Shown here one piece after another: positions 1 through 17,782 of a stretch of 20,621 bases of DNA (position 1 is its first letter; each line of letters starts with the position of its first letter). Both the position numbers and the translations under genes were made by a program. A model generated the notes under the pieces. That model was not told where the DNA came from, searched no databases, and saw only the letters and a list, made by a program, of their open reading frames with translations. Where the stretch lies: positions 1 through 20,621 of the IMG/VR virus record IMGVR_UViG_3300005918_000170. One strand, written 5' to 3'. Origin of the DNA: a virus.

Positions 1-690
1 TTGTTTCGCCTCGATTAGTTGGAATCGGAGAAGCAGGCGGCCAATGTCGACGGCCTGATAACCTTCGATACACAAGTCGTGAGCTAACACGGTGCCAGCT
101 ATGCCACACGCGATAAGCTGTAGGTGGCTCTTGGCGTAGCCTTTTGCCTGGCGCATGATTGCGTTGCGTTGTGCCCAGGCATCCACCGGCGGCGATGGTA
201 TGAAATGCACGCGGGTGGCAGAGCTAAGTATGACAGCCGATTGCGTATCGCCGAAACAGTCGGTCGGGTTGCCAATCAGAACAACCTCGCGATTTTCCCA
301 GACTTGTTCCCACTGCGAGCGGTATGCGTCCCAGTCGGCTGGCACCAGATGCCGGTCCGGGTAGCTCACGAATCCGCTGCCGTAGGTCCGCCGGTCGAAG
401 TGCTCTTTGCACCAGCCCTCCCAGCCACGCCAAAACCTGGGGATGGATGGTAGTGCATCGCGGTACGGGTCGATGCCGACAACGCGGGGCACGGCAATCA
501 GCAGGTTGTCCACCCGGCTCTCGAACACTTCTTTCAGGCGTCGAATCAGCCCGCTATTTAGCGGCTGGTGTCGATGCGCCCAGCCACGGTATGCGTAGCC
601 GAGTTCCCCGTCGTTGAATCGGGTCAGGCTCTTGCCCGCCACCACCGCTGCCGTGGTTTCACATTCGTCTAGGACGTGTAAATCACTCAT
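1..690 (-). CDS. GT-D-fold glycosyltransferase (DUF1792-like), 3' end outside window
   Basis: An open frame of 230 codons runs from an ATG at 690 to the window edge without a stop, so the C-terminus is missing. Residues 24-31 read RFNDGELG, matching the RFGDGE signature of GT-D (DUF1792) glycosyltransferases, whose DxE (here Asp27, Glu29) binds metal and nucleotide sugar. A second family-like block, GTVLAHDL followed by GYQAVDIG, lies at residues 199-217. Known GT-D enzymes add sugars to glycan chains on Ser-rich proteins or to polysaccharides. The start overlaps the sulfotransferase stop by 8 bases (ATGAGTGA), so translation is probably coupled; the upstream Shine-Dalgarno is weak. It is the last visible gene of the glycan cassette. 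Family assignment is fairly secure; donor and acceptor are unknown. Confidence 0.75.
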   Translation of the reverse strand, partial: MSDLHVLDECETTAAVVAGKSLTRFNDGELGYAYRGWAHRHQPLNSGLIRRLKEVFESRVDNLLIAVPRVVGIDPYRDALPSIPRFWRGWEGWCKEHFDRRTYGSGFVSYPDRHLVPADWDAYRSQWEQVWENREVVLIGNPTDCFGDTQSAVILSSATRVHFIPSPPVDAWAQRNAIMRQAKGYAKSHLQLIACGIAGTVLAHDLCIEGYQAVDIGRLLLRFQLIEAKQ

Positions 691-1357
691 GGTATGTGTA
701 CCCGTATTCGTCGATTTCTCGTTGATATCGCACGGCAACCAATTGCCGAAGCGTTGCTGTGTAGTAGTCCTTGTATGCCTTGTGCCGTGACTGGTTTGTT
801 TTATCCAGCCCGCCATGTATGCCAAGCGTATCGGCAACTACTTGCCAATCAGTGGCAAGGTTTTCCATCCGGCCGACAAAATCAAACAGGCGGTTGCCGT
901 CGCGGTCGTAGAGCCAGTCTGTCTGGCGGTTTGCGTAGCTCAGCCCCTCCATTGAATAGCGGCCAACCGGTGGAAGATCTCCAGCACAAACAAGCTCGAT
1001 GAAGTGCTTGAACGATAAGTGCAAGGCAGCCATGCGTTGGTCGGGGCGCCCTTGTGCGAGGTGGTGGTAGACAGAGACGAGCCGGTCCCACGGGTTGCGG
1101 ACAAACGCGAATGTGAATTGTTCGTCGAGCCAGTCCTGTGTAATGGTGCCGTCCTCAACCAGCGTCGGAACGTAGACGTGCTGAAACGTGGTGATAGTTT
1201 TCGCCGGGAAAAACTGCCTGTCCAGGTGAGCTATCCGCTGTGCATGGTGGCCAGAGCGGGGGCATACCAGCCGTTGCCAGATACTTGTGCCGGCCGTGCG
1301 TGGTATCCACAAGAATAGGCCGTGCGGTGGCTTTGCTGCGTGGCTGGCAGACTCCAT
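683..1357 (-). CDS. Sulfotransferase (Sulfotransfer_2-like)
   Basis: A 224-residue protein with both PAPS-binding signatures of sulfotransferases. The 5'-phosphosulfate loop is FLWIPRTAGTSIW (residues 15-27) and the 3'-phosphate element is FAFVRNPWDRLVSVY (83-97). GRMENLATDW (162-171) and the C-terminal YQREIDEYGY are also typical. Enzymes of this family transfer sulfate from PAPS to hydroxyls of carbohydrates. The frame is open to 1564, but the upstream 69 codons overlap the previous gene and look non-coding. ATG 1357 has GGAGG seven bases before it and overlaps the previous stop (TGATG), so it is chosen as the start. Lying between two glycosyltransferase genes, its likely substrate is the glycan they build (inference). 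Phage-borne sulfotransferases are uncommon. Confidence 0.85.
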   Translation of the reverse strand: MESASHAAKPPHGLFLWIPRTAGTSIWQRLVCPRSGHHAQRIAHLDRQFFPAKTITTFQHVYVPTLVEDGTITQDWLDEQFTFAFVRNPWDRLVSVYHHLAQGRPDQRMAALHLSFKHFIELVCAGDLPPVGRYSMEGLSYANRQTDWLYDRDGNRLFDFVGRMENLATDWQVVADTLGIHGGLDKTNQSRHKAYKDYYTATLRQLVAVRYQREIDEYGYTYHE

Positions 1358-2340
1358 CACAGCACCTCCGTTAGAATTTCCTTGAGCCGTGCCGCCATTG
1401 CTGCCGGGTTGTTCGCCCGCTTGGCAACGGCAAAGGCTCGTTCTCGCAGTGGACGCATTTGCAGCCAATCGCGCTTGACTTTCGCAATCAGTTCGTGGGC
1501 ATTCTCCCACATTGGCTTGCACGGTAGGTAGGTTTCGCCGGGCGTGAAAGTATCCTCCGGCCACGTAGCGATATGGCTAACGTCTGATTTGATGAGCACG
1601 GCGCCCGTGAGCATTGCCCCGAAGTCCCGGTAAGCAGTTTCGCCCCAGCCCCACGGCGACAACACTGTCCGACTCTTGCGCATGGTGCCATAATACAGCC
1701 CAATCGGCATAACGCGATTGCGGTGTGCGACGACTTCGCCGCCTTGCCAATTGGCTACGGCTTCAAAGGCGGCAATCCGATGTGCCTGAACTTCTGAACG
1801 GCCGTAGCTTGTCGTGCCGGAGAAGTGCGCGTCATGGATGCGAGGTGCATCTAGCTCCGGGTCGTGGCGCAACACCCCCGTCATTTCCTTATGCGAACCG
1901 AACCCGGCCAGCGGATAAACCTTGGCAAGCTCGGCATCAGTTAGGATGATGTCCGGCTTCCCCTGCGAGGTTGGCCGGACGGCTTTGACGCCATGCTGTT
2001 TGAGAATGTGTACATGATACCGGCCCTGTAATTCGTTGTTGCGCGAGGCCGGCGTGAGACACGAGCGTTTCAGGACAGCTTTGATGGACGGCCACTGAAT
2101 AAACTTGCGGTCGCCAAGTTGCGAGCCGTCGAGGTCATCCGTCATAATCAGGGGCGTCTTGCAGTGGGCAAAATCCGGCGTACATTTGGCCATGGCGACA
2201 TCAATGATAATCGCATCGTAGCCGGTTGCCGCAAGCACTTCGTCTGGGAGCATCTTGCGGGCCTCACCCCCAAGCGCCCTCGTGGCGGCTGCATAGCCCC
2301 AGGTCGCGCCGTCCTTGCGAAAGGCGAAGAGCAACCTCAT
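1357..2340 (-). CDS. GT-B-like glycosyltransferase (Glyco_trans_1_2/CgeB-like C-terminus)
   Basis: A 327-residue protein. Its C-terminal part carries SPWGWGETAYRDFGAMLTG (228-246), followed by VLIKSD, which resembles the nucleotide-sugar-binding end of CgeB/exostosin-like GT-B glycosyltransferases (S.wG.GE..yR.fEal.aG.v.i). The N-terminus, RLLFAF with a small-residue-rich segment, is consistent with the first Rossmann domain. A GTG three codons upstream (2349) is possible, but ATG 2340 has AAGGGG eight bases before it and is preferred. The stop overlaps the sulfotransferase start by one base. Context supports glycan synthesis. Sugar and acceptor are unknown, and the exact family is less certain than for the other two transferases. 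Confidence 0.7.
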   Translation of the reverse strand: MRLLFAFRKDGATWGYAAATRALGGEARKMLPDEVLAATGYDAIIIDVAMAKCTPDFAHCKTPLIMTDDLDGSQLGDRKFIQWPSIKAVLKRSCLTPASRNNELQGRYHVHILKQHGVKAVRPTSQGKPDIILTDAELAKVYPLAGFGSHKEMTGVLRHDPELDAPRIHDAHFSGTTSYGRSEVQAHRIAAFEAVANWQGGEVVAHRNRVMPIGLYYGTMRKSRTVLSPWGWGETAYRDFGAMLTGAVLIKSDVSHIATWPEDTFTPGETYLPCKPMWENAHELIAKVKRDWLQMRPLRERAFAVAKRANNPAAMAARLKEILTEVL

Positions 2341-2342
2341 TG

Positions 2343-2393
2343 TCAGCACCCCTTCTTACAGTGGGCACAACGCGGGATAAGAAAACGAATCAT
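2343..2393 (-). CDS. Possible 16-residue Cys-rich mini-ORF
   Basis: An ATG four bases after the DUF1360 gene stop opens a 16-codon frame, MIRFLIPRCAHCKKGC, that ends two bases before the ATG of the next gene. Its CxxCxxxC spacing could bind a metal, and its tight fit between two genes would suit translational coupling. There is no clear Shine-Dalgarno. It may equally be chance in a 57-base spacer that also holds the ribosome binding site of the next gene. Confidence 0.2.
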   Translation of the reverse strand: MIRFLIPRCAHCKKGC

Positions 2394-2397
2394 GCAG

Positions 2398-2679
2398 CTA
2401 CGCATGGAACACCTCCGCTGAATCGAGAAACCAAAGTAATACTAGCGACACCATTGACGCCAGTGCCACCACCGCGAATACATCCACCGGCAACCACCAT
2501 GACGGCCGGTACAGGAGTATGGCCAGCAGGGCTACCCAGTGGCTCAAGCAATAAGGACATTCTAGCAGGGTTCGCAGAAAACCAAAAGTGCGATTGCGTA
2601 CCGGCTCGAAAATCTTGGCTGTGCTGATTGTGATAGACACCACCGAAACAGCCAGGGCAATACGAAATAACTCTAGCAT
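2398..2679 (-). CDS. Small membrane protein, DUF1360-like
   Basis: A 93-residue, very hydrophobic protein with likely membrane segments at about 5-22, 46-58 and 65-86. The motif CPYCLSHWVAL (41-51) is the hallmark of DUF1360, a small membrane family often encoded by phages. Its biochemical role is unknown. The frame extends to 2715, but ATG 2679, inside the end of the upstream transferase gene and preceded by GGGGGA, is the natural start; the two genes overlap by 7 bases. Being enclosed in the cassette, it might anchor the transferases at the membrane or act on a lipid-linked intermediate, but this is inference from position only. Confidence 0.75.
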   Translation of the reverse strand: MLELFRIALAVSVVSITISTAKIFEPVRNRTFGFLRTLLECPYCLSHWVALLAILLYRPSWWLPVDVFAVVALASMVSLVLLWFLDSAEVFHA

Positions 2680-3722
2680 TGCAGTCCCCCCAGCATCTTC
2701 TCCCAGTGCGGCCAAATCTTGGCTGGGTTGGCCAATTCGTCGGCCACGTATGCCCGTGCCCGCTTGGTTATTTTCAGCCGCAGCGTCTCGTCATACCCGA
2801 GCATCGCCGCATAGAAAGCTAGGTCGGCCGGCTCATCGGCGGAGAGATAGCCCGTCTCACCATGCCGAATCATCTCGCGCCAGCCCCACTGATTCTGCGC
2901 AACTATTGGCACACCGGACGCCATGGCCTCCAGCCCGGCGCGGGGCCAGTTCTCGCCAGCCCCGCCGTTGACTTGCAGCAGGCAATGGAGCGAACCCAGG
3001 AATTTCTGCGAGGGCTCGGCGCAGGACGCCAGGCATTCAGCAAAGGCTGGCGGCGTACCGACCTTGTTTTTCACAGCGTCCGACCACGCCATGACGCGCG
3101 CCTTCATTTTGCCGTTGTGCCAACGATGAATCAGCTTGAGGATTGGCCACGTATTCGATGAGTACTTATCTCCCGCCGCACGACTCAAGCGGCCTACGCA
3201 ATACATATCGTTGGGTGTACGCGGCCGGGGATTGTACGGGAACTCATCCACGGAGAATGCACCGCGTATCAAGTGCCCTTGGTCCGGCTTGTAGCCGAGG
3301 GGTGTCAACTTCTCCTCGATTTGCTTGCGCTGCCAATCGGACTGAAACACGTAAGCCTCGAAGGTCTTGTTGTATTTCTTACAGTGTGCGATTTCCGGGC
3401 CGTAACAAAACGTCATGCAGTTCACCCACACTATCGGGCAGCCCATGTCGCGGAATCGGTGAGCTTGTGCAATGAAATTGCTGTTGCACATCGAGATAAC
3501 AACAGCGCCCTTGAGGTCTGGCACCGTTTCGATTTCATCCCAGTTTGCAAGATGGACCTTGCAGCCGATACCCTCTAGCTTTTCTCGCCAGGTCAGATCG
3601 GCACCGCCCATGGGAATGAATGTGAGGTCGACGCCGTTTGCTCGCAGCATCTTCGCCGTGTGCCAGCACTCCGTATTTGCCCCGCCTGAGTTGCCGGGAA
3701 ACCCACTCCAAAAAACCTTCAT
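2673..3722 (-). CDS. Glycosyltransferase, GT4-like (GT-B fold)
   Basis: A 349-residue protein of normal length for GT4. The N-terminal domain begins MKVFWSGFPGNSGGANTECW, with the glycine-rich acceptor loop of GT-B enzymes. A domain boundary near 170 leads into VGRLSRAAGDKYS. The C-terminal domain has ENWPRAGLEAMASGVPIV (257-274), containing the EX7E pair Glu257/Glu265 that contacts the donor sugar nucleotide in retaining GT4 enzymes, then GETGYL. The start ATG has AAGGGG nine bases upstream. It begins 15 bases after the Ser-rich appendage gene stop, so both are probably co-transcribed. No signal peptide is seen, so it should act in the cytoplasm. Sugar specificity cannot be read from sequence. 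Confidence 0.87.
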   Translation of the reverse strand: MKVFWSGFPGNSGGANTECWHTAKMLRANGVDLTFIPMGGADLTWREKLEGIGCKVHLANWDEIETVPDLKGAVVISMCNSNFIAQAHRFRDMGCPIVWVNCMTFCYGPEIAHCKKYNKTFEAYVFQSDWQRKQIEEKLTPLGYKPDQGHLIRGAFSVDEFPYNPRPRTPNDMYCVGRLSRAAGDKYSSNTWPILKLIHRWHNGKMKARVMAWSDAVKNKVGTPPAFAECLASCAEPSQKFLGSLHCLLQVNGGAGENWPRAGLEAMASGVPIVAQNQWGWREMIRHGETGYLSADEPADLAFYAAMLGYDETLRLKITKRARAYVADELANPAKIWPHWEKMLGGLQC

Positions 3723-3737
3723 TTTCTTACCCCTTAG

Positions 3738-5507
3738 TTAGCTGGTTACATTAACGGTTGCTCCGGTCCAATCGCAGCTTGGATCGGAATCAGAATCGTA
3801 AGTAGGCGCACCTATGGCCGTGCAATCTATCGTGCTGCCAGCCTGACTGCCTCCGAATTCCACGGCTTCCGCATTACCCACGAAGTCGACGAATAGGCCG
3901 TAGTAAACAGTCCCGGCCGCCTCTGATACCTCTACCCATATGCGGGTGGCATTGCATGGCAGGTCGGTTGTTTTCTCCCACACGCAGTTGCCGATGTAGT
4001 CCAGTTCCCAGGCTGCATTCCACGCCGTGCAATCCTCGCATTCCGTACCAGAGGAACTGGCCGCCGGGTTCTGTGCCACGCCGGCAATCGTTGCGATGAT
4101 TACGGCTGGTGTCGATTCGACACAGACAACACATTCGCCGGAAGAGGAGCTGCTGGATGATGCCTCGCCGCTGCTGGAGGAACTGCTGGACGAAGACGAA
4201 GACGGTTCGCCACTGCTGGACGATGATGGGCATTGCCCCTCGCTGATAACTACGGTCGGGGTTTGGTCCGGGCAGTAGCCATTGAAGATGTTGTATAGGT
4301 CGTAGGCACCCAGCGGCGGGCAGTCTGGATAGTCGCAAGCGGATATTGGGCGACTCAGCCAACGCGACGGATTACTCACGGCATCCGGGAAATAGTCCAT
4401 ATCGACTTGCATGTACCATGCACAGCCCTCGCCGGACGAACCGCTGCCAGAGCCACTATCGCCGCACTCACACCAAATCATTATGCAGATATTGGCGCAG
4501 AAACCTTCTTCCCAATCATGGGGCACGCAACGAGTCCAATGGCAACTGCCCGGGAATCGCGTTAGATTGATTATCTGATTCGCACACTCGCAGTCGCCAG
4601 TCATGCCGGTGATGGTCGCACACAGCACCTCAGAGCAATCCTCGGCACAGTCAGCGGCATCCGGGCACTCGCACTCACCGCTTGACGAAGACGACGAACT
4701 GGTGACACAAACGCACTGACACTTGATTTCCACTTGCCCGTAATACTGGCCTTCCACTTCCGGCTTGTCGTATCGGTCGGCGCCGATGTCGGATTTATCC
4801 TCCAGATACCACCACATGCCGGGCGGGTTCGGCGAGACGTAAGACTCGGGGCACTCGCCAGAAGACGATGACGACGAGGATGATGGCGTACACTCAGGCG
4901 GCGTACAAGGGCACCACACCCACCAGGCGCAGCCACCGCAGCATTCTTCGCCGGATGATGCCTCCTCGCCACTACTGGAGCCACTAGGGCTACTGGAGCC
5001 ACTAGAGCTACTGGAGCCACTAGAGCTACTGGAGCCACTACTACTGCTTGAGCTGCTCTCGTCGCAACGCTTCTCGGGATGGCCTAGCACCTCCATCCGG
5101 CCGCTTTGTCTATTGAAGGTGACCCAAACACGGTCGCCCTCGACGTAGCCGGCCACCATATCGGGGTCAAGCTCGGCCGTCGGGAAGTACAGGTCGTCCA
5201 TCGTTCCCGGCTCGGCAATATAGCTGTCAGCGCCGATATCGTAAAACACCGCAGCAGCATCCGGGGACATCGGCACGGCAGAGCCACCAGCCGACGAAGA
5301 CACCACGCAGCCCATGTCCTCAGTGAGTTCGTACAGCCAAACGATTGTGGGGATGGGCAGCATCACCGATTCGCCGGGCGTAGAAACCTCGGTCCCGGCA
5401 TGGGGCGCCACGTCGGTTTCCAACCTGCTGTTCATGCCCTCGATCAGCTTATTCTGCTGCGATGCAAAGGGCGGGTCGCGTTTTTTTACTGGGGTTACCC
5501 GTGTCAT
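3738..5507 (-). CDS. Large Ser/Cys-rich virion appendage (fibre-like) protein
   Basis: A 589-residue protein, unrecognised as a whole. Residues 1-148 form an ordinary, mostly globular N-terminus. From 149 on, Cys-rich modules alternate with serine tracts at about 151-180, 209-216, 269-276, 427-432, 436-446 and 450-456, many ending in GE or GEC. Two modules look related: ATITG...DCEC...GSCHW...IMIWCE (about 297-347) and ATIAG...CEDC...GNCVW...IWVEVSE (about 471-527), suggesting a duplicated disulfide-bearing beta domain. The start overlaps the previous stop as ATGA. As the last structural gene after the tape measure and a distal tail gene, it is likely a tail tip, fibre or surface appendage (inference). 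The serine linkers resemble substrates for O-glycosylation, and the glycosyltransferase cassette follows directly. An extended hydrophilic linker role without sugars is the alternative. Confidence 0.75.
   Translation of the reverse strand: MTRVTPVKKRDPPFASQQNKLIEGMNSRLETDVAPHAGTEVSTPGESVMLPIPTIVWLYELTEDMGCVVSSSAGGSAVPMSPDAAAVFYDIGADSYIAEPGTMDDLYFPTAELDPDMVAGYVEGDRVWVTFNRQSGRMEVLGHPEKRCDESSSSSSSGSSSSSGSSSSSGSSSPSGSSSGEEASSGEECCGGCAWWVWCPCTPPECTPSSSSSSSSGECPESYVSPNPPGMWWYLEDKSDIGADRYDKPEVEGQYYGQVEIKCQCVCVTSSSSSSSGECECPDAADCAEDCSEVLCATITGMTGDCECANQIINLTRFPGSCHWTRCVPHDWEEGFCANICIMIWCECGDSGSGSGSSGEGCAWYMQVDMDYFPDAVSNPSRWLSRPISACDYPDCPPLGAYDLYNIFNGYCPDQTPTVVISEGQCPSSSSSGEPSSSSSSSSSSSGEASSSSSSSGECVVCVESTPAVIIATIAGVAQNPAASSSGTECEDCTAWNAAWELDYIGNCVWEKTTDLPCNATRIWVEVSEAAGTVYYGLFVDFVGNAEAVEFGGSQAGSTIDCTAIGAPTYDSDSDPSCDWTGATVNVTS
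4972..5043 (-). repeat. Four 18-bp tandem repeats coding for Ser/Gly
   Basis: Four consecutive 18-bp units begin at 4972, 4990, 5008 and 5026. The two middle units are identical (plus strand ctactggagccactagag) and the outer ones differ by a few bases. Each encodes a Gly-Ser hexapeptide of the GSSSSS kind, using mainly AGY serine codons. The exact unit length of six codons keeps frame, so copy number can vary by slippage without breaking the gene. Confidence 0.9.
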
Positions 5508-9051: not shown

Positions 9052-9477
9052 TTAGCAACCACTCGAAGAACTACCAGAGCCAAGGCAGGTATCATCGAGC
9101 AGTCCGAACAGAACAGGCGCGAGACGGCCTACCCATGTGACGGTGTATTCAATCGGCGCTCCATCGTCGATATCCACCGGGACGCGGATCTCGCTGATCC
9201 TCACGCAACCGTGGATATAATTGAGGAGAGCCGGGCCGATATGGAAGTCGGCCGGATAGGACGCTCCCGCCTGGACGATGAGGCAGCCTGCGTCATCCGC
9301 TCGCAGAAGGAACGTCCCGGACCACCGCTGCGTGCCGGAGAGATTTTCTTTCCACCCGGCGGTCGCGTTGGAGCCGTACTCCTTGAGGTTTCCCTCGATA
9401 CTTGCTTCCCAGTTGCCAACGGGCGCGAGCACACGGCCCCCGACGTACAATGTTCCCCATTTACCTGACATTTCCAT
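9052..9477 (-). CDS. Probable major tail tube protein
   Basis: A 141-residue beta-rich protein beginning MEMSGKWGTLYVGGRVLAPV. The run EYGSNATAGWKENLSGTQRW, followed by SGTFLL, resembles the strand pattern of tail tube proteins (Y.S..T.GW....G...WSG.F), and the gene lies directly before the tail chaperone, the usual place. The start has AAGGAG seven bases upstream. The C-terminus ends in GSGSSSSGC, one of the serine tracts shared by virion proteins here; in a tube such a tail could face outward. The neighbouring 9496-10053 product is the other candidate for the tube. Confidence 0.6.
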   Translation of the reverse strand: MEMSGKWGTLYVGGRVLAPVGNWEASIEGNLKEYGSNATAGWKENLSGTQRWSGTFLLRADDAGCLIVQAGASYPADFHIGPALLNYIHGCVRISEIRVPVDIDDGAPIEYTVTWVGRLAPVLFGLLDDTCLGSGSSSSGC

Positions 9478-9495: not shown

Positions 9496-10053
9496 TTAGG
9501 CACCGCTTGAGCTGCTACTACCGGCAACGGGTCGAGCGATCCCAATAATTGCGATTGAATACGTAACGTCGGCCACCTCGGCAGCAATTCGCAACATTCT
9601 GTTGCCGTTGCTCTCACCGGACGATGACGACGAACTGCCCTCGGAACTGACTATCCAGCCCTGCTGGCGATTGGTGAGCAGTAGCGTAGAGTTGGCTGGT
9701 ATCTCCACCTGATGGCTTGCAGCGCGGAACGGTTCCCACCAGCAGTCGTAGTCGGCGTTGCCCATGACGAGATCGCCGGCCGCCGCATTTTCGTTGACGA
9801 TATGGATGGCTTTGATCCACTCGAAATCGACGGTTATGGTGTCTTCCAAAACCTTGCGAGTCATGGCCGTCAAATTGAAAACGTCGGAGGTGCCGTTGAC
9901 TAGGACTCGGTTTTCGGAATGCCAATTGCGATTGGCCTGTGCGATGCCCTGCCCGTCTGCCAGGCTGTTGGCATAGGACAGCTTAGAGTTGTCGACGACA
10001 CTGTCCGTCCAGTTCCAACTCAGCACCGATTCGATTTGTGTCTTTATGCTCAT
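9496..10053 (-). CDS. Tail structural protein with two serine tracts
   Basis: A 185-residue protein. The frame extends to 10110, but the extra codons only overlap the upstream gene; ATG 10053, two bases after that gene's stop and starting MSIKTQIESV, is the real start. The middle part, FEWIKAIHIVNENAAAGDLV followed by IPANSTLLLTNRQQGWIV, looks like a beta-sandwich virion protein. Serine tracts occur at EGSSSSSSGESNG (about 9605-9645) and at the very C-terminus, GSSSSSGA. It lies between tail terminator and tube genes, so it is part of the tail or tail surface. No family name can be given with certainty. Confidence 0.6.
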   Translation of the reverse strand: MSIKTQIESVLSWNWTDSVVDNSKLSYANSLADGQGIAQANRNWHSENRVLVNGTSDVFNLTAMTRKVLEDTITVDFEWIKAIHIVNENAAAGDLVMGNADYDCWWEPFRAASHQVEIPANSTLLLTNRQQGWIVSSEGSSSSSSGESNGNRMLRIAAEVADVTYSIAIIGIARPVAGSSSSSGA

Positions 10054-11979: not shown

Positions 11980-12411
11980 TCAAATGCAATTCAGTTGAAA
12001 CCGGATATAAAGCTCATCCGCCCCAACGGTGATAAGCCGGTACTCGACGAGGTATCGACGGCCGGCAATCGAAAACGCCTCGTCGTCGCAAGTGTCAATC
12101 GTGTGCTTGAAGTTGTAGCCGGTGGTGTCTTTCGTCCACATGCAATCCGTTTGCAATGCGTTGTAAATAATGTCGGTAATCGTCAACGATACGTTGTTGT
12201 GGCCGTCTACTGCCGTGCGGTTGTCTGAATCCTGATCGTCAAGCAGGTAGACGGTATAGGTTGCGGTCACGCCGCACTCGCCAGAAGACGAGCCGCCTGG
12301 GGCGAAGTCGGCTTGCGTGACAGCCACGCAATCGGCACCGATGACTCGGGCCAATAGCGTAGCCGTACCGTTTTTGAAAACGCTGCCGTGTTCATCCCGA
12401 GCGTTCGCCAT
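11980..12411 (-). CDS. Virion-associated protein with GSSSGEC tract, family unknown
   Basis: A 143-residue beta-rich protein, not recognised. It contains PGGSSSGECG at about residues 38-47, the same serine motif found in the capsid and tail proteins, followed by TATYTVYLLDDQDSDNRTAV and a C-terminal RRYLVEYRLI. Start ATG has GAGG upstream. It follows the major capsid gene in the slot of head-tail joining or capsid accessory proteins, so it is probably in the virion; the motif supports this but no function can be assigned. Confidence 0.6.
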   Translation of the reverse strand: MANARDEHGSVFKNGTATLLARVIGADCVAVTQADFAPGGSSSGECGVTATYTVYLLDDQDSDNRTAVDGHNNVSLTITDIIYNALQTDCMWTKDTTGYNFKHTIDTCDDEAFSIAGRRYLVEYRLITVGADELYIRFQLNCI

Positions 12412-12492: not shown

Positions 12493-13785
12493 CTAGTGCT
12501 CCGCGTTCGCGTTGATAGCGGGCCAGGCGTCCGGCTCGCAGATGGTTTCGCCGCTCGAACTGTGCCCACAGCTACCGGACGAGATTACCATGTAATGCGG
12601 TCGCTTCACCCAACAGCCGCCGCGTTCCGATGCCTTGAACCTGACAACGATGTCCTGCTCAAATTCCACCGTCGAATTGATCGGCTCCTGTGTCACGGTT
12701 ACCGGCCAGTTCTCGCGGTAGACAAACGCCTTTTTGGGATTGCCCAGCAACCAGACATCGGCCGGATCGCCGAAATCGTTGGTCGCAACCAGCAACTGAT
12801 ACGCCCGGCGGCTCTTCTCCGCGAGGGTGTAGCCAGCCAGCGGATTTCCGCCGATGGTGTTGGAAATCCCGCCACGCGGTCCGGCGTCGACGTCCCCGTG
12901 CCATACGGTCGTGGCGCCGAGAATGCGACGGGCAGTAGCCCATTGCGGCGGCATCACGATAAGCGTCTGGCCGCCGATCTCGATGGACTCCCCGTTGTCC
13001 GGATCGGTCATATCGTCAAACCAGCGTTCGGCGTAATCGATGTCGGTCCAATCCCGCAAGGGGCGGTCATGGATGTTCGCGGGTGCCATCGTGTTGCCGC
13101 CAACTTGCTGATTCGTCGCGTTGTACGTGTTATACGCCGCGCCGTTGTAGTTGAAGTTGTTGGCAATGCCCAAGATGACATTCCAGATGCGCTTGTCCTT
13201 GTTGACCCCGAGCCATTCACCCACGCGGCCTGCCTGGCGCAACATTTCGCCCGACTGCCCGGTGAAGAACAGGGCCTCCTTGGTAAGCCCGACGATCATG
13301 CCGCGCTTGTGGTTGTCGGAGAAGTCTTGGTACTTCTCGCCGATTTCCTGCGCCGGATACGGCATCCCCTCGTGGACGATTTCCCCTTGGTCACCAATCG
13401 ACGTGATGCCCGGTCGCCGTTCGTGGCGTAGCATCACATTGGTTTCCAGGTCGACCAGCGAAGCAGCGATGGCCGATTCCATTAGGAAGGCGTCCATCAC
13501 CTGCTTTGAAATCACCCGTCCGGTGATATTCAGAAACGCGGTGCTGTCCACACCGTCCGCCGCTTCGAGGATTCTCGTTGCGTGGTCGTTCCCGGCTGCG
13601 TTGGGATTGCACGCCTGGCGGAACTCGTGACCGAAAAACGCTTCGGCCAACTCGCAGAAGTCGACATCGGCGGGACGCAACGGCGCGTCCTTGTCTTCCA
13701 TCGCTTCCGCAATGTGCTTGGCCATTCCGGCCGGACCCATTGTCCGGCTAAGTTGTACCAAGTCTCTGTACTTGATTGCTCTCAT
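12493..13785 (-). CDS. Major capsid protein (HK97 fold)
   Basis: A 430-residue protein in the major capsid slot after protease-scaffold and decoration genes. SLVDLETNVMLRHERRPGIT and KRGMIVGLTKEALFFTGQSG match the N-arm and spine of HK97-type capsid proteins, and EQDIVVRFKASERGGCWVKR with PHYMV is the typical C-terminal end. Unusually, 25-30 residues follow the fold: ISSGSCGHSSSGETICEPD and a short tail, adding a serine/cysteine tract to the most abundant virion protein. The N-terminal about 90 residues may be a delta domain or be removed by the protease; no cleavage site is evident. Start ATG 13785 is preceded by an AAAGGACAGCGACC stretch. Confidence 0.85.
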   Translation of the reverse strand: MRAIKYRDLVQLSRTMGPAGMAKHIAEAMEDKDAPLRPADVDFCELAEAFFGHEFRQACNPNAAGNDHATRILEAADGVDSTAFLNITGRVISKQVMDAFLMESAIAASLVDLETNVMLRHERRPGITSIGDQGEIVHEGMPYPAQEIGEKYQDFSDNHKRGMIVGLTKEALFFTGQSGEMLRQAGRVGEWLGVNKDKRIWNVILGIANNFNYNGAAYNTYNATNQQVGGNTMAPANIHDRPLRDWTDIDYAERWFDDMTDPDNGESIEIGGQTLIVMPPQWATARRILGATTVWHGDVDAGPRGGISNTIGGNPLAGYTLAEKSRRAYQLLVATNDFGDPADVWLLGNPKKAFVYRENWPVTVTQEPINSTVEFEQDIVVRFKASERGGCWVKRPHYMVISSGSCGHSSSGETICEPDAWPAINANAEH

Positions 13786-13805: not shown

Positions 13806-14345
13806 CTATTCGCCGGAACTCGACGAGCCAGAGCAGGTGTCGCCCTCATACCCGGCTTCCATAAGCTCGGATGTGATTCTTACGTACACCGTCGTGGCGG
13901 CCACGTTGACTTGTTTTTGAACGATACCGATGGATCGTTGGTCTATCTCGGCATCGCCGAGGGGAACCTCGATTACGGTCTGGTTCAACAATGCGTTCCC
14001 TGCCGCATTCTCCGCAACGCCAACGCGGTCGGCGATATCAAAGAGTGCCGACGCACAGTCAAATTCAAACGTGCCCTTGGTGGCAACGCGAATCGACGTA
14101 ACGTCGAGGGGATCGTGACTCGGCCTATGCTGTTGCATGGCCACGCCGAGGAACTTGCACTTAAACCATTTTTGGTTAATTGCAATCGTCCCTTGGTCGT
14201 TTACTTCCGACGCCGGCAGGGTGTAAAGCCCAGCAGCATCTCGTTCGCCGTACACCAGGTCACCGATTTCGATGGTGTGTACGTTGCGGACAAAAGCGAC
14301 CACCGGGTAGGTGTCGCCGTACCGCCATAGCATCCTATTTGCCAT
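13806..14345 (-). CDS. Putative capsid decoration / accessory protein
   Basis: A 179-residue beta-rich protein between the protease-scaffold and major capsid genes, the usual slot for decoration (cement) proteins. It begins MANRMLWRYGDTYPVVAFVR and has VGVAENAAGNALLNQTVIEV in the middle. It ends in DTCSGSSSSGE, another of the shared serine tracts. Start is well supported by AAGGAGG upstream. Decoration is inferred from position and size; I recognise no family motif. Confidence 0.55.
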   Translation of the reverse strand: MANRMLWRYGDTYPVVAFVRNVHTIEIGDLVYGERDAAGLYTLPASEVNDQGTIAINQKWFKCKFLGVAMQQHRPSHDPLDVTSIRVATKGTFEFDCASALFDIADRVGVAENAAGNALLNQTVIEVPLGDAEIDQRSIGIVQKQVNVAATTVYVRITSELMEAGYEGDTCSGSSSSGE

Positions 14346-16135: not shown

Positions 16136-17782
16136 TTACTGGCTGGAAATTGCATGGCGACTGTACTGGAATCCATTGCCTTTCGCAAACTTGGCTAGAT
16201 CATCGTGCATAAGGTCGGCAAACTTCTTGTCACGTGCCATCGCTGTCACTTTCCTTCCCGCCCGAATCTCGCCGGCCTCCCATTTCTGGAGCTTGACATT
16301 GAATACCACACTGCGATTGTCCCATTGTTTTGCTAAGTCTGCCGCCTTTGCTTTGGGTAACGCCTTATTGAACTTCACCCCATACACGTAATCTGGATCA
16401 ATTGCATAGTGGCGACCGCCTGCGCCTGAATACATGCCAATATCCCGTCCTGACGGAGCGGACGGCGTTGGATGATTGTGTAGCGTAACAAGCCGACCAT
16501 CGCTTGCGGCCAAGGCATCGCGGCCAACCTGCGGAATTGCCACCTCGCTTGCCTTCCCGTCAAACTGATGTACGACTTTTCCGTTATCTATCAAGAGCAT
16601 CCGCTCATTGCCCGCTGCTTGTGGGGCCTTGAGTGTTTCTATCTGCTGTTGTGTAATTCCCGCCGGGGCGGTTGCCCCTTCCTGCTGCTTCCATAGGGGC
16701 GCATCCTGCGGCTTTACTGTCCTTGCTTTTGTTGCCTTGGGCTTGGGCTTTTTCTTCGCGGCCTTTTTCGCTGCCGCTGCTGCCTTCTCCCGCTCACGCC
16801 GTGCGGCTCCAGCCCGATACGGCGCGCCCAATTCTACCGGTGGCAGATCCTTGATGAGCGTATCGTAATCTTGCAGCACGGGGGTAGTCCAGCAGAGACA
16901 ATTCGGCGCCAGTGGAATGGGCGGCAATACTTCCCCATCCTCAGCGATGAAATCCCCGCCGCTTGTCCGGTAGTATATTTTGCCATGCAGTGCGGCATGG
17001 GATTCCCTGGTACGCTCAGTCAGTGCCGAGTGCCACTGAATGCCCGACACCAGGTCGCCGGCCTCTTGCCACGTCTTGTCCAGCCCAGCCTGTGCAATAC
17101 GCACGCCCTCGGTCCTGGCTATCCTGGCAGCCTTGTAGTGAACGTTGCCCACGTACTTCTGTATGGCTGCCGTCATCTTCGCTTGTGCGGCGCCCTCGCT
17201 GTATAGATTGGTCACCGTCCGAAGCAGGTCGCTCTTGTCGCCGGCCTCCACCGTCTTGATCCGCTGCATGGCCGACATACCGTCGGGGGCCGTGGTGTCA
17301 GTCAGAATCGTCGTTACCTCTGCTTCCGTCGGGGGCGGAAATTCAATCTCCCGGACGATCTCCCTAGCCCGCTCATCGCTCACCTTGCCGTTGATGATGT
17401 CGTCCAGTTCGCTCGTAATCTCCGGGCCGAATTCCGCCTCGGTTGCCAGTAGCTCAATCGGGATGTTCCGGGCCACCCAGAACTTGAGCGGATAGGCTGA
17501 TACGAAATCCAGCGTGGCCGTGTCCCAGGACCAACGCCACATGGACGTTAGAAACTTCTCTAGAATGGCGGACCCATCGGGGCCTACCTCGTCGGCGATC
17601 ACATCAAGTCGCCTCCGAAGTGCGGCTGCCGTCCCCCGATGGGTCGCTGCCACCCCAGCAAGACGTTCCTCCACGCGGGCCAACCATTGATCCAGTGTGT
17701 GCCCAAATCCCACAATCCTACCGTTCCGGGCTGCCGTTCGCCGGTCGGTTGTCTTTCGGATTGTGCGGGTGGCTGTTGGCAT
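16136..17782 (-). CDS. MuF-type head morphogenesis protein with C-terminal JAMM-like domain
   Basis: A 548-residue protein. Residues about 200-300 form the Mu gpF/SPP1 gp7 minor head domain: ARIARTEGVRIAQAGLDKTW, then WHSALTERTRESHAALHGK and APNCLCW. A Lys/Ala-rich linker (about 327-353) leads to a second domain. Its LHNHPTPSAPSGRDI (434-448) carries the H-x-H-P...S-x-x-D signature of JAMM/MPN+ (RadC-like) metalloenzymes (His435, His437, Ser444, Asp447), with Glu413 a candidate catalytic acid; the His-Ser spacing is one residue shorter than in RadC. MuF proteins are packaged and may be ejected, and such C-terminal domains are often effectors. The start is chosen because it lies 4 bases after the preceding stop. 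MuF call secure; JAMM call by motif only. Confidence 0.82.
   Translation of the reverse strand: MPTATRTIRKTTDRRTAARNGRIVGFGHTLDQWLARVEERLAGVAATHRGTAAALRRRLDVIADEVGPDGSAILEKFLTSMWRWSWDTATLDFVSAYPLKFWVARNIPIELLATEAEFGPEITSELDDIINGKVSDERAREIVREIEFPPPTEAEVTTILTDTTAPDGMSAMQRIKTVEAGDKSDLLRTVTNLYSEGAAQAKMTAAIQKYVGNVHYKAARIARTEGVRIAQAGLDKTWQEAGDLVSGIQWHSALTERTRESHAALHGKIYYRTSGGDFIAEDGEVLPPIPLAPNCLCWTTPVLQDYDTLIKDLPPVELGAPYRAGAARREREKAAAAAKKAAKKKPKPKATKARTVKPQDAPLWKQQEGATAPAGITQQQIETLKAPQAAGNERMLLIDNGKVVHQFDGKASEVAIPQVGRDALAASDGRLVTLHNHPTPSAPSGRDIGMYSGAGGRHYAIDPDYVYGVKFNKALPKAKAADLAKQWDNRSVVFNVKLQKWEAGEIRAGRKVTAMARDKKFADLMHDDLAKFAKGNGFQYSRHAISSQ

Follow-up and report, generated by a model that had tools for sequence, protein, structure and literature searches.

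Gene organization of the window

The window, as we call the whole stretch of DNA analysed here, is the entire 20,621-base IMG/VR record IMGVR_UViG_3300005918_000170, which belongs to a tailed phage and has its genes read on the minus strand. The gene order is portal, MuF-type head protein, protease-like protein, putative capsid, connectors, tape measure, one tail gene, a Ser/Gly-rich protein and a cassette of five genes, and we characterize here this cassette together with its Ser/Gly-rich neighbour. An origin in host DNA was ruled out by the portal, MuF-type head and tape-measure genes on the contig. The original prediction, made from the sequence, had placed five tightly packed genes of one direction at positions 1–3722, and these are indeed present, on the minus strand: the end of the GT4 glycosyltransferase gene overlaps the start of the DUF1360 gene, base 1357 is common to the GT-B-like and sulfotransferase genes, and the sulfotransferase gene overlaps the GT-D gene, as in one operon. 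The GT-D gene runs off the contig and the cassette is therefore incomplete in this record. The cassette and its neighbour comprise the following genes (L numbers denote related loci).

1..690, minus strand: GT-D (DUF1792) glycosyltransferase (PF08759 and PDB matches; 3' end missing at the contig end)
683..1357, minus strand: sulfotransferase of the type dependent on 3'-phosphoadenosine-5'-phosphosulfate (PAPS) (Sulfotransfer_2; PF03567, phrog_3347 and a relative in L005)
1357..2340, minus strand: GT-B-like glycosyltransferase, of the Glyco_trans_1_2 kind via relatives only (L140–L142 match PF13524)
2398..2679, minus strand: small DUF1360-like membrane protein (PF07098, borderline)
2673..3722, minus strand: GT4-family glycosyltransferase, the constant cassette member (PF00534; beside Ser-rich proteins in relatives)
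3738..5507, minus strand: Ser/Gly-rich virion protein, proposed main acceptor (589 amino acids, 101 Ser, runs of up to 11)

Elsewhere in the window, the C-terminal part of the MuF-type head protein (16136–17782, minus strand) weakly matches Prok-JAB (17 bits against a cut-off of 25).

Cassette enzymes

Profile searches bore out the families that had been predicted from motifs. The GT4 enzyme clearly passed the Pfam cut-off for Glycos_transf_1 (PF00534; 36.7 bits, cut-off 26.4), and its EX7E motif (E257..E265) is invariant in an alignment of four sequences. The GT-D enzyme matched PF08759 at 86.8 bits (cut-off 27, a clear pass); its DGE motif is present as RFNDGE, aligned to 'RFGDGE' of 4phr, and its nearest PDB matches are the 'GalT1' entries 4phr/4pfx (E=1.6e-16), which we take to be the dGT1 N-terminal domain from Streptococcus parasanguinis, with 5v4a also matched. 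The sulfotransferase likewise passed clearly (Sulfotransfer_2, PF03567; 43.4 bits, cut-off 22) and belongs to phrog_3347, 'Galactose-3-O-sulfotransferase' (71.7 bits); the segments PRTAGTS and RNPWDR, presumably the 5' and 3' PAPS-binding motifs, are partly retained in a relative that is 30% identical and equivalently placed in L005. A PDB search with this protein gave no match. For the predicted DUF1360 membrane protein the agreement is borderline (PF07098; 21.6 bits against a cut-off of 21, covering 49 of 102 profile positions).

The second GT-B-like enzyme that had been predicted, with Glyco_trans_1_2 as the family to check, matched no Pfam family by itself, Glyco_trans_1_2 included. The label holds indirectly, because three relatives (L140–L142; 33–41% identity), found in 3 of 294 genomes of a Planctomycetota sample, pass the Glyco_trans_1_2 cut-off (PF13524; 26.2, 39.6 and 36.4 bits, cut-off 25); two of them also match RXYLT1_C weakly. 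No relationship between the GT-B-like family and GT4 was found by hhalign, and a single-sequence AlphaFold2 model had a predicted local distance difference test score (pLDDT) of 37 and was not usable.

Phage glycosyltransferases can act on DNA, according to PMC12619734, and the cassette enzymes might accordingly glucosylate or otherwise modify the phage's DNA bases. This is extremely improbable here: the cassette is placed after the tail genes and not with replication genes, and no base-modification gene turned up among the window proteins scanned. A role of sulfotransferases or GT-D enzymes in such modification is not known.

A Ser-rich protein adjoins GT4

The original prediction had missed the Ser/Gly-tract virion gene at 3738–5507, whose product is the likely acceptor of the cassette enzymes. 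The N-terminal part of this protein matches its L005 counterpart at 27%, and AlphaFold2 gave no usable model of the N terminus (pLDDT 41). Simple DNA slippage was rejected as the source of the Ser tracts by mixed TCN/AGY codon use (60 TCN and 41 AGY codons, with box switches in 19 of 57 neighbouring pairs). Identical neighbouring Ser codons number 11 against 9.8 expected, and the 19 switches are somewhat below shuffles (27.4 expected), which leaves room for local duplication in the origin of the tracts.

Adjacency of such a gene to GT4 recurs among relatives. A GT4 profile search retrieved 52 loci, 32 of them viral and 20 in GTDB genomes, and in 28 of the 32 viral loci GT4 is preceded on the same strand by a Ser-rich open reading frame (ORF), defined by 14 or more Ser in 30 residues. 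With the window and an additional prophage-like locus included, 54 loci collapsed into 41 clusters when dereplicated at 90% GT4 identity; a Ser-run protein lies at most 3 kb away in 25 of the 33 dereplicated loci that have at least 2.5 kb upstream, and at most 300 nt away in 19. In 24 dereplicated viral loci, Ser-rich proteins account for 18 of 23 ORFs adjoining GT4 upstream versus 3 of the 218 remaining ORFs on the same strand (Fisher p=7e-20, without correction for relatedness), and two of those three non-adjacent ORFs (in L003 and L023) are about 1.5–2 kb from GT4. The Ser-rich protein before GT4 in L026 (8774–9967, plus strand) consists of DSSAP repeats rather than S-runs.

The pairing extends to chromosomal loci, in which GT4 is accompanied by very long Ser-rich proteins (2006–2200 amino acids).

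L043, 3076–9453, minus strand: very long Ser-rich protein beside GT4
L044, 2897–9499, minus strand: very long Ser-rich protein beside GT4
L045, 5891–11911, plus strand: very long Ser-rich protein beside GT4

In both loci of the metagenome-assembled genome (MAG) RI_54, GT4 is 502–545 nt from a Ser-rich protein of 2126–2200 amino acids on the opposite strand, and in the isolate Alienimonas chondri it lies 2.6 kb upstream of one of 2029 amino acids. RHS repeats were present in both proteins scanned, one from RI_54 (L044) and one from A. chondri (L045), and L044 additionally carries Sulfotransfer_3, pyruvyl transferase and GT2 genes. As at these chromosomal loci, an RHS-repeat protein is also found on a viral contig, downstream of the transferases in L002 (9709–11499, plus strand).

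Relatives selected by tail protein

Relatives were also chosen independently of GT4, with a profile (A3) of the tail protein directly upstream of the Ser-rich gene; 384 viral loci matched, 80 were listed, and the counts use the 38 of the 80 listed loci with at least 3.5 kb downstream. A Ser tract and GT4 occurred together in 13 loci, a Ser tract only in 18, neither in 7 and GT4 only in none. Nine of the 18 Ser-positive loci lacking GT4 carry another transferase (Mannosyl_trans3 in six, GT25 in two and Gly_transf_sug in L121). The seven Ser-negative loci (34 ORFs scanned, one near-duplicate locus omitted) yielded no glycosyltransferase and one FkbM methyltransferase. A transferase above cut-off was therefore present in 22 of 31 Ser-positive versus 0 of 7 Ser-negative loci (p=0.0009); with two duplicates removed, the counts were 21 of 30 versus 0 of 6 (p=0.003). 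Between lineages A3 and A7, the tail genes that directly precede the Ser-rich gene show a distant relationship at best (probability 63%).

Two further arrangements were observed among these relatives. A second cassette type consists of Mannosyl_trans3, mostly with an FkbM methyltransferase, beside proteins with SSG repeats (L070, L078, L085, L088, L095 and L108), and in L067 (10247–11719, plus strand) a GT25 domain is fused to a Sulfotransfer_3 domain in one protein.

Tract style and C-terminal tags vary with the transferase

Tract style covaries with the type of transferase. The share of Ser residues lying in runs of at least three has a median of 0.77 with GT4 (n=22, including four from genome contigs and one genome) and of 0.02 with Mannosyl_trans3 (n=6), in which the tracts are SSG repeats; it is 0.30 in the MptE-like group (n=10) and 0.49 with GT25 (n=2). 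The contrast of GT4 with Mannosyl_trans3 plus MptE gives p=3e-7, the groups compared being lineages. Short Ser stretches also occur in other virion-region proteins of the window, all on the minus strand:

9052..9477, minus strand: virion protein, putative tail tube by position, C terminus GSGSSSSGC
9496..10053, minus strand: virion-region protein phrog_22694, C terminus AGSSSSSGA, internal GSSSSSSGE
11980..12411, minus strand: virion-region protein, internal GGSSSGE
12493..13785, minus strand: putative major capsid protein (by position and synteny only), HSSSGETI near the C terminus
13806..14345, minus strand: virion-region protein, C terminus CSGSSSSGE

The capsid and tail-tube names are based on position and synteny, and profile scans of the window proteins confirmed neither. 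HSSSGE lies 19 residues from the end of the putative capsid, and its homologues in L005 and L024 (35–40% identical) each have their own SSS tag near the C terminus. No S-run of three occurs in the cassette enzymes, portal, MuF or tape-measure proteins of the window. Counting SSS within the last 15 residues of automatically called ORFs before the cassette (one near-duplicate GT4 locus omitted), we found tags in 16 of 159 virion-region ORFs from phages with GT4 versus 1 of 294 from relatives lacking it (by group, 10/46 and 6/113 with GT4, and 0/92, 0/65, 1/115 and 0/22 without). The tag position shifts between phages: the tail gene before the Ser-rich gene is tagged in L005 and L023 and untagged in the window, and one connector is tagged in L023 and L024 only.

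The Ser tracts could alternatively be unmodified flexible linkers or stalks, paired with GT4 through neighbourhood at one lineage's tail-end locus. Ser/Gly-rich linkers are common in proteins, and most loci share synteny and ancestry. We nevertheless regard this as unlikely, given that tags on genes distant from the cassette also follow GT4, that tract style varies with transferase type and Ser-negative relatives lack transferases, and that the pairing recurs with RHS-type proteins on opposite strands.

Distribution, hosts and cassette exchange

The hosts of the relatives are Planctomycetota: 18 of the 20 GT4 loci in GTDB genomes are titled as taxa of this phylum, A. chondri among them (taxonomy verified for two names), and the remaining two belong to RI_54, which is titled only 'bacterium'. 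GT4 was present in 5 of 392 genomes of an even sample of the phylum, a sporadic distribution as expected for a mobile gene, and one copy is situated within a 6.96 Mb contig, in a region resembling a prophage. No match to GT4 was found among 50,697 GenBank phage records. The cassette is phage-borne, and it follows tail genes in relatives too. Conservation of the cassette beside tail genes, which the original prediction had proposed to examine, holds for this position and not for the full cassette: across related phages only GT4 and the Ser-rich neighbour are constant, and the other transferases vary from phage to phage. Among 60 ORFs downstream of GT4 in L002–L032 (alignment A2), radical SAM proteins were matched by six and GT64 (exostosin-like) by four.

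Polysaccharide-like neighbours (GT2, GT64-like, FkbM, pyruvyl-transferase, LicD and radical SAM) would suit a piece of an exopolysaccharide or capsule locus of host origin, carried by the phage, that acts on free polysaccharide and not on protein. We consider such an origin very unlikely, as the 60 scanned ORFs match 17 families, none of them a polymerase, flippase or initiating phosphoglycosyltransferase, and GT4 occurs only sporadically among Planctomycetota genomes.

Of 50 related records, many of them fragments, seven encode a sulfotransferase. These enzymes belong to three families (PF17784 in L003, L020, L022 and L023; PF13469 in L028 and L067; PF03567 in L005), and all seven records also encode Ser-rich proteins. 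Sulfate capping would thus be a recurrent but minority feature of these phages, and its product may be carried on their virions. Single-sequence scans with the sulfotransferase, the GT-B-like enzyme and GT-D of the window gave no viral relative. A two-sequence sulfotransferase profile retrieved 14 distant viral relatives, all on contigs of lower G+C content (0.32–0.44) that lack Ser-rich proteins; these form an imperfect control owing to the difference in G+C content. Three GenBank phage records match the phrog_3347 enzyme; in the one viewed in context, no transferase is annotated nearby.

Proposed virion glycosylation

On the basis of these observations, the cassette probably serves to O-glycosylate the phage's own virion proteins at their Ser tracts, with sulfate added to the glycan in the present phage. 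GT4 would add the first sugar to Ser residues in S-runs, both those of the protein at 3738–5507 and the short C-terminal SSS(S)G tags on other virion proteins, the putative capsid and tail tube included. The chain would then be extended by the Glyco_trans_1_2-like and GT-D enzymes, and the Sulfotransfer_2 enzyme would cap it with sulfate from host PAPS. The assembly and sulfation of a short glycan had already been suggested by the original prediction, and we infer the same. Related phages would retain the acceptor and GT4 and exchange the extending and capping enzymes, giving each phage a different coat that may serve adsorption or shielding.

Several observations weigh against this interpretation. 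GT4 is nearest to generic GT4 enzymes, none of which is named as a protein-Ser transferase. All counts are inflated by relatedness. A qualifying Ser-run protein is missing within 3 kb at eight of the 33 dereplicated loci (L023, L024, L025, L026, L029, L040, L048 and L049); among these, L023 has a Ser-rich protein with two runs only, and short SSS(S)G stretches are present in L024 and L029. In the A3 set, the other nine Ser-positive loci carry only a methyltransferase and a sub-threshold MptE-like protein, and GT4 alone is associated with the Ser state at only p=0.07. The absence of sulfotransferases from six Ser-negative records (0/6) is not significant (p=0.58), and GT-D occurred in none of the 50 related records, in a search whose control also matched nowhere.

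The strongest clue is the combination of the Ser-rich neighbour and the C-terminal tags, which make the virion, not the host surface, the likelier target. Serotype-changing phage glycosyltransferases are reported in PMC12619734, and the cassette could similarly be a moron at the end of the late operon that alters host surface polysaccharide for serotype conversion or superinfection exclusion. A small membrane protein within the cassette, the differing cassette content among phages and the prophage-like state of at least one relative (in the 6.96 Mb contig) agree with that function. It leaves unexplained the Ser-rich adjacency in both viral and RHS contexts and the C-terminal tags that track GT4, and Pfam scans turned up neither a GtrA-type flippase nor a GtrB-type bactoprenol transferase (the gene names of gtr cassettes) among the cassette proteins; modification of the host surface is accordingly an unlikely role. 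Compared with O-glycosylation of virion proteins, the four alternatives are less able to explain adjacency, tags and tract styles jointly.

A broader scheme is possible, if doubtful, in which Planctomycetota phages bear a proteoglycan-like coat on the virion: the long Ser-tract stalk and portable C-terminal SSSG tags would form an acceptor code, its style (S-runs or SSG repeats) co-evolving with the linked starter glycosyltransferase, and interchangeable cassettes would add and sulfate the glycan. It is a guess that a sulfated coat aids adsorption by imitating sulfated polysaccharides that serve these bacteria as food. If O-glycosylation is correct, the cassette would represent phage-encoded protein O-glycosylation with a recognisable acceptor sequence, would extend the glycosylation known from serine-rich repeat proteins (SRRPs) from cell-wall adhesins to virions, and would add sulfate to the known phage coats. 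Tail-end cassettes may also mark Planctomycetota phages, and the covariation of Ser-tract style and transferase could be a ready source of enzyme–acceptor pairs. A literature search of titles and abstract openings, which covered few subscription papers or preprints, found no description of such a system.

Comparison with known systems

The sulfotransferase of the window is a member of the phrog_3347 phage sulfotransferases; relatives of the enzyme at the 14 other viral loci occur without a Ser-rich protein. Animal proteoglycans such as serglycin combine Ser-Gly tracts with PF03567-type sulfotransferases, and relatives of the cassette show GT64, GT7C and weak CHGN matches; in contrast to proteoglycans, no xylosyltransferase or PAPS synthase was found in the cassette, and there is no sign of a long repeating chain.

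SRRP loci such as fap1 of S. parasanguinis likewise have their transferases encoded next to a Ser-rich protein (here 3738–5507), and the GT-D enzyme has a relative there in the dGT1 N-terminal domain. According to PMC5207161 and PMC5063993, it is through its DUF1792 domain that dGT1 adds a glucose to the Fap1 glycan, which is linked to Ser. The acceptor here is a phage virion protein and not a wall adhesin, and a sulfotransferase is present. SRRP loci have a two-protein GT4-type starter (Gtf1–Gtf2), whereas a single GT4 was found among the cassette proteins, in a cassette that is cut by the contig end; the scanned window proteins included neither accessory Sec export components nor a wall anchor, which one would not expect for a virion protein. 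For want of the paired starter and of accessory secretion among the scanned proteins, we do not file the cassette as an SRRP member, although the logic is similar.

In mycobacteriophages, glycans are reported on the C termini of capsid and tail-tube subunits (Freeman 2023, as cited in PMC12619734), a site comparable to that of the C-terminal tags described here, and phage-encoded glycosyltransferases are common to both; in the window their genes lie beside structural genes. The proposed system differs from that of the mycobacteriophages in its dedicated long Ser-rich protein, swappable cassettes, sulfotransferases and different host phylum.

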